NCBI RefSeq assembly: GCF_012516375.2
Contig: NZ_CP051204.2
Coordinates: 2,728,001-2,792,000, forward strand
DNA length: 64,000 bases
Source of the DNA: Chitinophaga oryzae
GTDB taxonomy: Bacteria; Bacteroidota; Bacteroidia; Chitinophagales; Chitinophagaceae
Direction of reading: 5' to 3'
This document shows positions 19,079 through 21,570 of this stretch, one piece after another. The notes beneath the pieces are model-generated. The model saw nothing but the letters and a program-made list of their open reading frames with translations, had not been told where the DNA came from and made no database searches. The position numbers and the translations under genes were made by a program. Each line of letters opens with the position of its first letter. Position 1 is the stretch's first letter.

Positions 19079-21127
19079 TCAGCGGCTGACCGGTTGATAG
19101 GCTTCGAAAGTGACAGAGGCATTGGCTCTTCCGGAGGAGAGCGTACGCAGGGTGGTCACATATCCGAAGAGGTCGGCCAGCGGCACACTGGCAGTGATGT
19201 CCTGCACATTGTTTTTGATTTCCATGTGACGGATCACGCCACGGCGCCTGTTAAGATCGCCGGCGAGCGCACCGGTATATTCTTCCGGTGTGGTGACTTC
19301 CACGGACATGACCGGTTCCAGCATACGCGGGCCCGCCTGGGCCGCGATATTGCGGAAAGCAATCATGGCCACCTGTTCAAAGTCCTGCGCGTGGGAGTCG
19401 TTGGGATGTATTTTACCATCGAGCAGCCGGATACGCATGGCATGAAGGGGATACCCTTTGAGCGGGCCGGTTTTCATCGCAGCTTCAAAGCCTTTGCTGA
19501 TGGAAGGAATGAACTCCTTCGGTATGGCGCCGCCTTTGATGTCGTTGATAAATTCCAGTCCCGGCTGACCGTCTTCCCGGGGCGACATTTCAAACGTGAT
19601 GTCTGCAAAGTTGCCCGAGCCGCCGGTTTGTTTTTTAAACACCTCATGATGGGTGACCGCCTGCGTGAGTATTTCCTTGTACGCAATCTGCGGCGCCCCT
19701 TTGTTGATCTGCAGCTGGTATTCCGTGGCCAGTTTTTCCAGCACCACTTCCAGGTGCAGTTCACCCATGCCTTTGAGGATAGTTTGGCCGGAGGCCTTGT
19801 CTACCTCTACTGACAAGGTGGGATCTTCATCCAGCAGTCCTGCCAGCGCTTCGCCCAGCCTGTCGGCATCTTTGGCTGCTTTGGCTTCCACGGCGTAACC
19901 GATCATGGGTTCGGGGAAGCTGATACGTTCCAGCAATACCGGATGGTCCGGATGGGACAGCGTGTCGCCGGTTTTAACGTCTTTCAGTCCTACTACTGCG
20001 CCGATGTCGCCGGCGCCTATTTCGTTCACCGGTTCAAACTTATCGGACATGATGCGCAGCAGGCGGCTGATGCGGACGGTACGGCCGGAGCGGCTGTTCC
20101 ACAGCATGTCGCCCGTGCGTAAAATGCCGGCATATACGCGTACTAACGTCAACCTGCCTACGTAGTCGTCGACCATAATTTTGAAGGCCAGTCCGGCTAC
20201 CTTCGATTCAGGGGTGGCCGGTATGGTAATGGCTTCGCCGGAATCAGGATCGGCGGCATGTACCACCGGAATATCTTCCGGCGAGGGCAGGTAGGCCGCC
20301 ACCGCGTTGAGCAGGGGCTGTATGCCTTTATTCCTGTAGGCGGCGCCTGCGAAGGCCGGTACGGCCAGCATGTTGAGCGTGGCATAGCGCATGGCGGCTA
20401 TGATGGTTGCTTCGCTGACGTTGTCCGGTGTGCCGGTGTATTGTTCCAGCAGTGGTTCGTACAACAGCGACAGTTCTTCCAGCATATTCCTGCGGGCCTG
20501 CATGGCCGCTTCCAGCAGCTCGTCCGGGATGGCTGTTTCTTCAAACAGTTTACCGTCGTCGTCATGCCAGAGCAGCGCTTTCATGCGGACAAGGTCTATT
20601 ACGCCGGTGAAGCTGTCTTCCTGCCCGATGGGCAGCTGCAGCGGAATAACGTTAGCGTGCAGTCGTTCCCGTATTTCGGCCACAACCCGCTGGAAGTCGG
20701 CGCCCTGCCGGTCCATTTTATTGATCATCACAATGCGCGGCACGTTGTAGTGGTTGGCCTGGCGCCATACTGTTTCTGATTGCGGCTGCACGCCCGAGCG
20801 GGCGCAGAATACCGCGACGGCGCCGTCGAGCACGCGCAGAGAACGTTCTACTTCGGCCGTAAAATCCACGTGGCCGGGCGTATCAATAATATTGACCTGG
20901 TATTTTTCATCCGCATAATTCCAGTACGTGGTGATCGCTGCGGAAGAGATGGTGATGCCCCGTTTTTCTTCCTGCGGATCGGTGTCCATGATGGTATTAC
21001 CGTCATCTACATTACCCAGTTTATGTGTAAGGCCGGTGTAATACAGCATTCTTTCCGTGAGTGTTGTTTTACCGGCGTCGATATGCGCCATGATGCCTAT
21101 ATTTCTGAATCGGGACAGTTGTCTCAT
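19079..21127 (-). CDS. fusA: Elongation factor G paralogue
   Basis: 682 aa. It has the full EF-G layout with intact GTPase motifs: G1 [10 protein letters not shown]2 RGITI, G3 DTPGH, G4 NKMD. EF-G domains II to V follow, ending in [16 protein letters not shown]. It is shorter than the usual housekeeping EF-G. Switch I reads [22 protein letters not shown] instead of the common EVHxGxATMDWMEQExERGITI, and NVDDG recalls the EFG2 lineage linked to ribosome recycling. No rpsL, rpsG or tuf genes flank it, so this is a stand-alone copy and probably not the main translocase. Its roughly 400-base leader carries two small ORFs and two terminators. Confidence 0.85.
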
Positions 21128-21153
21128 ATAATATCTTCTTTAAAAATCGGAAT

Positions 21154-21183
21154 AAAAAAGCCTCTCATACGGTAATGAGAGGC
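21154..21183 (-). terminator. Leader terminator T2 of the EF-G paralogue
   Basis: On the minus strand GCCTCTCAT and ATGAGAGGC form a 9-bp stem with loop TACCGT, followed by TTTTTTATT. It ends about 27 bases before the EF-G start codon on the same strand, so it can only act as an attenuator. CATTACCG inside the hairpin can instead pair with CGGTAATG at 21211-21218, which overlaps the stop codon of leader ORF 2. Confidence 0.85.
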
Positions 21184-21212
21184 ATTGCGTTATGGCAACA
21201 GCATGCCAGACA

Positions 21213-21263
21213 TTACCGGTGTGGCCGGATGTATACAGTCATTGTTGTGATCAATACTTTCAT
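21213..21263 (-). CDS. Candidate leader peptide 2 (16 aa)
   Basis: ATG at 21261-21263 to TAA at 21213-21215 encodes MKVLITTMTVYIRPHR. It sits between terminators T1 and T2 in the EF-G paralogue leader. Its last sense codon and stop (CGG TAA TG) form the 5' strand of a helix that competes with T2. A translating or stalled ribosome here would change the fold. Position and overlap are the only evidence for translation; no strong ribosome-binding site is visible. Confidence 0.5.
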   Translation of the reverse strand: MKVLITTMTVYIRPHR

Positions 21264-21320
21264 AAGGCAGTGATCATTTACAGTATGTAAAAAGGGAGCC
21301 GGAACGGCAGGGGAGACAAA

Positions 21321-21350
21321 ATAAAAAGGCCTCTTCGGATGAAGAGGCCT
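21321..21350 (-). terminator. Leader terminator T1 of the EF-G paralogue
   Basis: On the minus strand AGGCCTCTTC and GAAGAGGCCT form a perfect 10-bp stem with loop ATCC, followed by TTTTATTTT. It lies 41 bases past the stop of leader ORF 1. AAGAGG at 21387-21392, overlapping that stop codon (TAAGAGG), can pair with CCTCTT in the 5' arm of T1 and compete with it. Confidence 0.88.
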
Positions 21351-21390
21351 CCAATATGATAATGGGAGTTATTTCACTTGATGATACCTC

Positions 21391-21510
21391 TTATATCCGG
21401 GTTGGATCTGCCTCCCCGTCTTGAATAAAGACAATACGAGTACTTGCAATTACCGCTCTGATAACGGAATCGTTTTTCCTGTTTGCCTGATATTTAAAGG
21501 TGTTTTTCAT
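21391..21510 (-). CDS. Candidate leader peptide 1 (39 aa)
   Basis: ATG at 21508-21510 to TAA at 21391-21393, starting about 25 bases after the predicted transcription start and preceded by AAAGAG. The product begins MKNTFKYQANRKNDSVIRAV and ends DPTRI; it is basic and has no membrane segment. It precedes terminator T1, and its stop codon overlaps the strand that competes with T1. It is probably a regulatory leader peptide of the EF-G paralogue, or possibly a small protein in its own right. Confidence 0.6.
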   Translation of the reverse strand: MKNTFKYQANRKNDSVIRAVIASTRIVFIQDGEADPTRI

Positions 21511-21539
21511 CTCTTTAATGTGAGTGATTTTTTGCGATG

Positions 21540-21570
21540 CAAAGATAATGATATTTCTGATGTGAACAAA
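21540..21570 (-). promoter_or_regulatory. Consensus promoter of the EF-G paralogue leader
   Basis: On the minus strand TTTG (21567-21570), exactly 19 bases, then TATCTTTG (21540-21547). This is a full match to the Bacteroidota sigma-70-type consensus TTTG-N19-TAnnTTTG. Transcription should start near 21533, giving a leader of roughly 400 bases before the EF-G ATG at 21127. Confidence 0.85.

Follow-up and report, generated by a model that had tools for sequence, protein, structure and literature searches.

Most known examples of arrest peptides and of upstream ORF (uORF) attenuators come from Firmicutes and Proteobacteria. ErmCL, which has the motif IFVI, controls a methyltransferase through translational attenuation, unlike the transcriptional switch that we propose below. 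This leader peptide of ermC stalls when Ile9 occupies the P site (PMC13148051). MsrDL, the leader peptide of msrD, stalls at its UAA codon, with erythromycin as the demonstrated inducer, and a ribosome held on this short hydrophobic peptide lets the polymerase pass an intrinsic terminator (PMC10314930), which is the behavior that we propose for the leader described here. In Salmonella, the mgtCBR leader contains mgtM and mgtP, tandem attenuators that respond to ATP and proline (PMC3641672). Second copies of EF-G have also been described: P. aeruginosa has two EF-G I paralogues per cell, EF-G1A and EF-G1B, one sensitive to fusidic acid and one insensitive, and the parts of that report consulted describe no comparable leader (PMC3832671); Bacteroides EF-G2 (FusA2) is a second Bacteroidota EF-G under special control (PMC6989115). 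Judged by their titles and abstract openings, the papers found on arrest peptides in Bacteroidetes do not appear to cover a leader of this kind, and in the open-access literature searched we found no report of the present leader or of a similar one from the Bacteroidota.

The window, a 64,000-nucleotide stretch of Chitinophaga oryzae DNA, contains on its minus strand a gene for an EF-G paralogue (19079..21127, start at 21127; 682 aa, GTPase motifs intact). As in mgtCBR, one leader with two short ORFs and, as predicted here, tandem attenuators stands before one operon; unlike mgtCBR, the Chitinophaga leader would control an EF-G paralogue and has a conserved ORF1 peptide and a helix, P1 (PMC3641672). 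The mefA/msrD operon likewise has two attenuators, but MsrDL is 6 aa long and has its own single terminator, and the second attenuator is described as serving msrD alone (PMC10314930). The first-pass annotation of the locus had called two sequential checkpoints for one gene unusual. As a matter of degree this holds, although Salmonella mgtCBR provides a published case of tandem uORF attenuation (PMC3641672). The annotation cited uORF-terminator leaders of Firmicutes; the host here is a Chitinophaga, a genus to which the names of its nearest EF-G matches also point, and so a member of the Bacteroidota and not a Firmicute.

The positions and the order that had been claimed on the minus strand for the promoter, ORF1, T1, ORF2, T2, and the EF-G start were all borne out. 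The promoter, TTTG-N19-TATCTTTG (21540..21570), is an exact match to the Bacteroidota type, which fits a Chitinophaga host. In the 8.36-Mb one-contig genome this pattern is matched exactly at 12 sites, versus 2 for the reversed pattern, and of 49 aligned upstream regions, the window included, 41 have a similar motif ahead of ORF1 by a loose regular expression. Downstream of the promoter are leader ORF1 (21391..21510, 39 aa), the intrinsic terminator T1 (21325..21352, a 12-bp stem and T-tract), leader ORF2 (21213..21263, 16 aa), and the intrinsic terminator T2 (21160..21183, a 9-bp stem and T-tract). The predicted fold of the window's leader is more stable than those of 100 of 100 dinucleotide shuffles (z = -5.34), and the end of the EF-G gene at 19079 faces a convergent reading frame. 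A second promoter had been named as an observation that would overturn the proposed control; the loose regular expression found no Bacteroidota-type promoter downstream of the first in the window's leader.

Two putative antiterminators link the ORFs to the terminators. The 5' arm of antiterminator 1 (AT1), CGGATATAAGAGG (21387..21399), contains the ORF1 stop codon, and its 3' arm, CCTCTTCATCCG (21336..21347), is made up of bases from the 5' arm and loop of T1. Similarly, the 5' arm of antiterminator 2 (AT2), CGGTAATG (21211..21218), contains the ORF2 stop codon, and its 3' arm, CATTACCG (21170..21177), lies within the T2 5' arm and loop. The locus thus has terminators between promoter and gene, mutually exclusive antiterminators that use the 5' arms of these terminators, ORFs placed where the decision would be made, and two ORF-terminator units. 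We consider the leader to be probably a tandem ribosome-mediated transcription attenuator that would keep a backup EF-G off during normal translation and turn it on when elongation is blocked. In this scheme each antiterminator arm, located at the stop codon of its ORF, would be able to pair with the 5' arm and loop of the terminator while the terminator's 3' arm is still unmade. A ribosome that arrives at the stop codon would hide this arm, allowing the terminator to form and RNA polymerase to dissociate. If the ribosome were instead held farther upstream, especially on the last Ile codon of the ORF1 core, the arm would stay free, and the antiterminator would form first and permit read-through. 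The same decision would be repeated at ORF2 and T2.

The EF-G paralogue is of the EF-G I type (TIGR00484, 844.2 bits against a curated cutoff of 659.4). It belongs to a different family from Bacteroides EF-G2, membership of which was rejected (NF058620, 438.9 against a cutoff of 1000), and membership of the tetracycline ribosomal protection proteins was rejected as well (NF012153, 371.6 against 775). A canonical EF-G with 53% identity to the paralogue is encoded elsewhere in the same genome. We found the paralogue in 46 of 79 genus genomes (43 near full-length matches and 3 partial matches with a full-length open frame). A search of 298 genomes of the order, whose draw overlaps that of the phylum search described below, found it in only three, all of them Chitinophaga. 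In a quick tree of 69 proteins and a careful tree of 24 proteins, the paralogues form one fully supported group on a long branch, which points to an old copy of the gene rather than a recent duplication.

The leader precedes all 46 paralogues found in the genus; close relatives, in which the earlier annotation had suggested looking for conservation, thus share the architecture. In the closest relative, C. eiseniae, whose EF-G is 96% identical, the leader is present, but its second checkpoint has decayed. R1, a sequence model of ORF1, matched 47 of the 79 genus genomes (E <= 1e-4), namely the 46 with the paralogue and one other, G033. There we observed a decayed orphan leader (L127:1240-1560) of the type that lacks T1, with the ORF1 core and P1 kept and the EF-G gene absent; it is apparently a relic left after loss of the paralogue.

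Beyond Chitinophaga, copies of the leader turned up in three further genera and in one other family. In 394 genomes of the family, R1 gave 24 matches at E <= 0.01, 13 of which were strong (E < 1e-17) and came from four genera. All 13 directly precede an EF-G gene, and 11 of the 13 EF-Gs either appear in the paralogue group of the trees themselves or supplied rows of it; those of G361 and G374 were not placed. Among 395 genomes of the class there was one further strong match, in the other family, before a paralogue with 62–66% identity; this leader is alike in anatomy and divergent in sequence. R2, a second model, recovered from 395 genomes of the phylum the leader of the window and no other. 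Neither the peptide motif nor an EF-G start occurs at any of the 11 family loci that R1 matched weakly, and of eight weak matches inspected (seven from the family and one from the class), all except L122 lie in long open frames. R2 was also applied to 46 control loci, of which 34 contained other EF-G-like genes, in some cases with little upstream flank, and 12 were weak-match loci; it matched no EF-G locus, and its 10 matches were all in weak-match loci. On these results we rejected the idea that the leader also precedes other genes in the genomes searched (strict filters). Membership of an Rfam class was likewise rejected, both matches being below threshold; one of them, to the PyrR leader (RF00515; window 21320-21504, 27.3 bits against a gathering threshold of 54), we take to be a chance likeness between attenuators.

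The 49 aligned upstream regions comprise 46 from the genus, 2 from Niastella, and 1 from a MAG labeled Cytophagales. Addition of seven new non-identical leaders gave a set of 56; two more family matches were identical to the Niastella ones. T1 is present in 40 of the 49 regions (39 by a strict scan, and L088 when one mismatch is allowed) and T2 in 46 of them (one mismatch allowed), and across the 56 leaders 43 have both terminators, 10 lack T1, and 3 lack T2. Each leader ORF stop codon lies in or near the complement of the 5' arm of its terminator. In most leaders it is in or beside the antiterminator arm; in L015 and L016, ORF1 extends past the arm.

AT2 shows strong covariation that includes the stop codon. 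Its 8 pairs were scored over 46 distinct rows, in which 87.4% of cells are paired and 27 cells have changed on both sides, a number that none of 500 shuffles reached. Three pairs show both-sided change, as many as were reached by 29 of the 500 shuffles, and slid versions of the pairing gave at most 1. One pair occurs as UA in 23 rows and as CG in 22; a second occurs as AU in 40 and as GC in 4, and here the stop codon changes from TAA to TGA while its partner changes from TTA to TCA. In the far-family leader the stop codon, TAG, stands opposite TTA (read by eye). T2 has both-sided changes in 8 of 12 pairs (57 cells), with one slid version reaching 7 pairs and 12 cells. T1 has them in 4 of 10 pairs with 96.5% of cells paired, and a slid version also reached 4, at 36%. 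In AT1, 95.6% of cells are paired; two pairs have both-sided changes, which four slid versions matched, and the covariation score was reached by 46 of 500 shuffles, so the covariation of AT1 is by itself weak. AT1 and AT2 each overlap the 5' arm of their own terminator.

For each leader we also ranked the duplex energy of the stop-codon region with the terminator arm among those of 200 mononucleotide shuffles. The rank was 10 or better in 33 of 46 cases for T1 and in 40 of 53 for T2. L114 and L115 have quite different T1 sequences, yet their duplexes ranked 0 of 200; AT1 was poor by this measure in L112, L113, L015, and L016. In L114, inspection by eye showed that the AT1 arm can also pair with CCTCTTC immediately upstream, within ORF1, which recalls a classical 1:2 hairpin.

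Folding calculations in which the ribosome was represented by an assumed 30-nt mask are consistent with the proposed switch. Before the T1 3' arm is made, AT1 in the window formed with a mean probability of 0.35 with no ribosome, 0.94 when the mask sat on the core Ile, and 0.00 when it sat on the stop codon. Among the 46 leaders that have T1, at least 4 expected pairs between the end of ORF1 and the T1 arm were predicted in 42 with no ribosome, in 45 with the ribosome at the core Ile, and in 2 with the ribosome at the stop codon. Because AT1 is predicted in 42 of these leaders with no ribosome, a failure of translation initiation may put the leader in its on state. For AT2 in the window, the corresponding values were 0.98 when free, 0.97 with the ribosome at codon 6, and 0.00 at the stop codon. 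At equilibrium, the window's T1 and T2 had probabilities of 0.86–0.99, versus 0.00 for the antiterminators, and T1 wins once it is complete; the switch must therefore be kinetic. When the ribosome was placed on the stop codon, the P1 arm, left free, was able to pair with the T1 arm in many sequences (a mean of 3.6 expected pairs), which would blur the off state.

The annotation's central proposal, that the leader couples the EF-G paralogue to translation, gains support from the position of the antiterminators at the stop codons, the covariation, the presence of the leader before 46 of 46 paralogues, and the paired decay of ORF starts and terminators described below. The paralogue may, as the annotation further suggested, be a stress or antibiotic-response factor. 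The candidate sensor is the ORF1 peptide. Its core, IRAVIAST[CR]IV[FL]I in the window's ORF1 and its relatives, follows the pattern I-R-A-V-I-A-S-T-x-I-V-[FL]-I, and each fixed residue is kept in 55 or 56 of the 56 ORF1s. The core codons vary synonymously (3 and 4 kinds for the Ala positions, 4 for Thr, 3 for Arg, and 2 for Ser), with one Val codon being GTC in all 56. The residues directly upstream of the core vary freely, and the codon after it is variable. In 10 of the 56 it is a stop codon, a UAA directly after IV[FL]I, which resembles the UAA stall of MsrDL (PMC10314930). The IV[FL]I segment is also comparable to the short hydrophobic stretch on which ErmCL is arrested with Ile in the P site, homology between the two being unsupported (PMC13148051). 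Conservation as a peptide through synonymous change is what an arrest peptide would show, and stalling on ORF1 is predicted; ORF1 may encode a nascent-chain arrest or drug-sensing peptide. The signal might be blocked elongation, caused for example by inhibitors of EF-G or of the ribosome, and the induced EF-G might stand in for its canonical counterpart as the less sensitive of the two.

The best-surviving alternative is that the leader is a homeostatic sensor of EF-G activity, in which low EF-G activity, starvation, or cold slows translocation in ORF1 and ORF2 and brings in the second EF-G. The gene under control encodes a translocation factor with intact GTPase motifs, and the logic of the leader needs no drug. 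A general slowdown, however, leaves unexplained a 13-residue ORF1 core that is nearly unchanged across two families, and we regard this explanation as rather unlikely. Alternatively, ORF1, with Ile or Val at 6 of its 13 core residues, could sense charged tRNA in the manner of the ilv leader, and one of the two Salmonella mgtCBR attenuators does sense proline (PMC3641672). But the Arg, Ala, Ser, and Thr positions of the core are conserved equally with Ile and Val, ORF2 has no Ile/Val run, and the gene is not biosynthetic, all of which make amino-acid attenuation improbable.

A second conserved element extends from ORF1 to beyond T1. The sequence GGGGAG begins 6 nt past the last core Ile codon in all 56 leaders and is the arm that pairs with a TGYYTCCCC-like sequence 3' of T1 to form helix P1. 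In the window, the 5' arm is GGGGAGGCA (21409..21417) and the 3' arm is TGTCTCCCC (21310..21318), which lies shortly downstream of T1. All 9 pairs of P1 were present in 40 of 40 leaders at first and, with the later additions, in 46 of 46 leaders that have T1. The pairing survives base changes, which are mostly one-sided; a both-sided change, C-G to U-A, occurred once (L050). Compared with 200 shuffles each, 45 of the 56 leaders ranked 0–2, the worst 15, and the window 10. In folds of the full leader, P1 was not predicted in L035, L083, L091, or L107, and reached only 0.09 in L038. A ribosome held on the last core Ile would cover the 5' arm, so that P1 would form only when the ribosome is absent. 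We found no shared alternative partner for the 3' arm in 25 leaders when P1 was blocked.

Natural losses of one checkpoint show that the two units are separable. T1 is absent from one clade of 9 leaders and from L107, which is of the same type and is not in the tree; allowing one mismatch, we found no terminator at the T1 position in these leaders. In them the AT1 arm is altered and ORF1 ends before P1. P1 itself is retained in 10 of 10, in some with a bulge, and starts 3 nt past the ORF1 stop codon, outside ORF1. Because the outlying leaders L050 and L153 have T1, its loss here, rather than its gain elsewhere, is the simpler reading. By eye, we noted a hairpin without a T-tract at the T1 position in L127 and in L035 and L089, which lack T1; it may be a relic or have a role of its own. 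T2 has decayed in L084 and L085 (sister tree rows L131 and L132) as well as in a separate lineage, that of L010 (C. eiseniae). Both lineages have also lost the ORF2 ATG, with an in-frame TTG left in L010 and L085. No leader among the 56 lacks both terminators. The lineages without one checkpoint amount to natural deletion experiments.

These losses also bear on whether the ORFs are translated at all. A leader that is bound by a protein or ligand, with ORF1 and ORF2 untranslated and only the RNA conserved, would account for the long conservation at the nucleotide level (the Val GTC codon, for example, in 56 of 56) and for the retention of P1 even outside ORF1. It is hard to reconcile with third-position synonymous changes in the ORF1 core while the residues stay constant, or with the loss of the ORF2 ATG that accompanies T2 decay in two lineages, and we give it little credence. 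Any genome has many single terminators and short ORFs, but their chance occurrence before an ordinary gene is contradicted by the 46 of 46 genus paralogues, the covariation, and the lack of a strong match elsewhere in the genomes searched (strict filters), and has a negligible probability.

We also compared residues at or near inhibitor sites, numbering the positions by motif, presumably as in the S. aureus and P. aeruginosa proteins. The mutations F88L, H457Y, and L461K are named as conferring high-level fusidic acid resistance (PMC12493156), and resistance to argyrin arises from S459F and other changes (PMC3438169). Lys occupies the position of S. aureus 451 and P. aeruginosa 459 in all but one of the 53 paralogues (52 Lys, one Gln); 12 other Bacteroidota EF-Gs have Ser, Asn, or Arg, and 4 EF-Gs from outside the Bacteroidota have Ser. 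F88 and H457 are unchanged in the paralogues. The L461 position is Val in 50, Lys in 2, and Thr in 1 of the 53. The two with a natural Lys at this common site of fusidic acid resistance in S. aureus EF-G are L101 (G074) and L142 (G047). The V90 position is Ala in all 53 paralogues, Val in the 12 other Bacteroidota EF-Gs, and Ala in 3 of the 4 from outside the phylum. As Ala at this position is not special to the paralogues, the site says little, and the reading of the paralogue as an inhibitor-tolerant EF-G is weakened; on the site substitutions, tolerance is plausible and no more.

The principle of the attenuator was already known; what is new here is the controlled gene, the conserved peptide, and helix P1. 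A translation factor of the Bacteroidota seems to be wired to the progress of the ribosome through two stacked checkpoints. Our fuller proposal, which is tentative and has less than an even chance of being correct, is that a new Bacteroidota family of arrest peptides senses inhibition of EF-G or of translocation and, through P1 at its constant spacing of 6 nt and two separately losable terminators, induces an inhibitor-tolerant EF-G. If so, the system would be an inducible target substitution for the motor of the ribosome. If the induced EF-G does tolerate the inhibitor, an essential translation factor would be replaced inducibly, which would point to natural inhibitors of EF-G encountered in soil.
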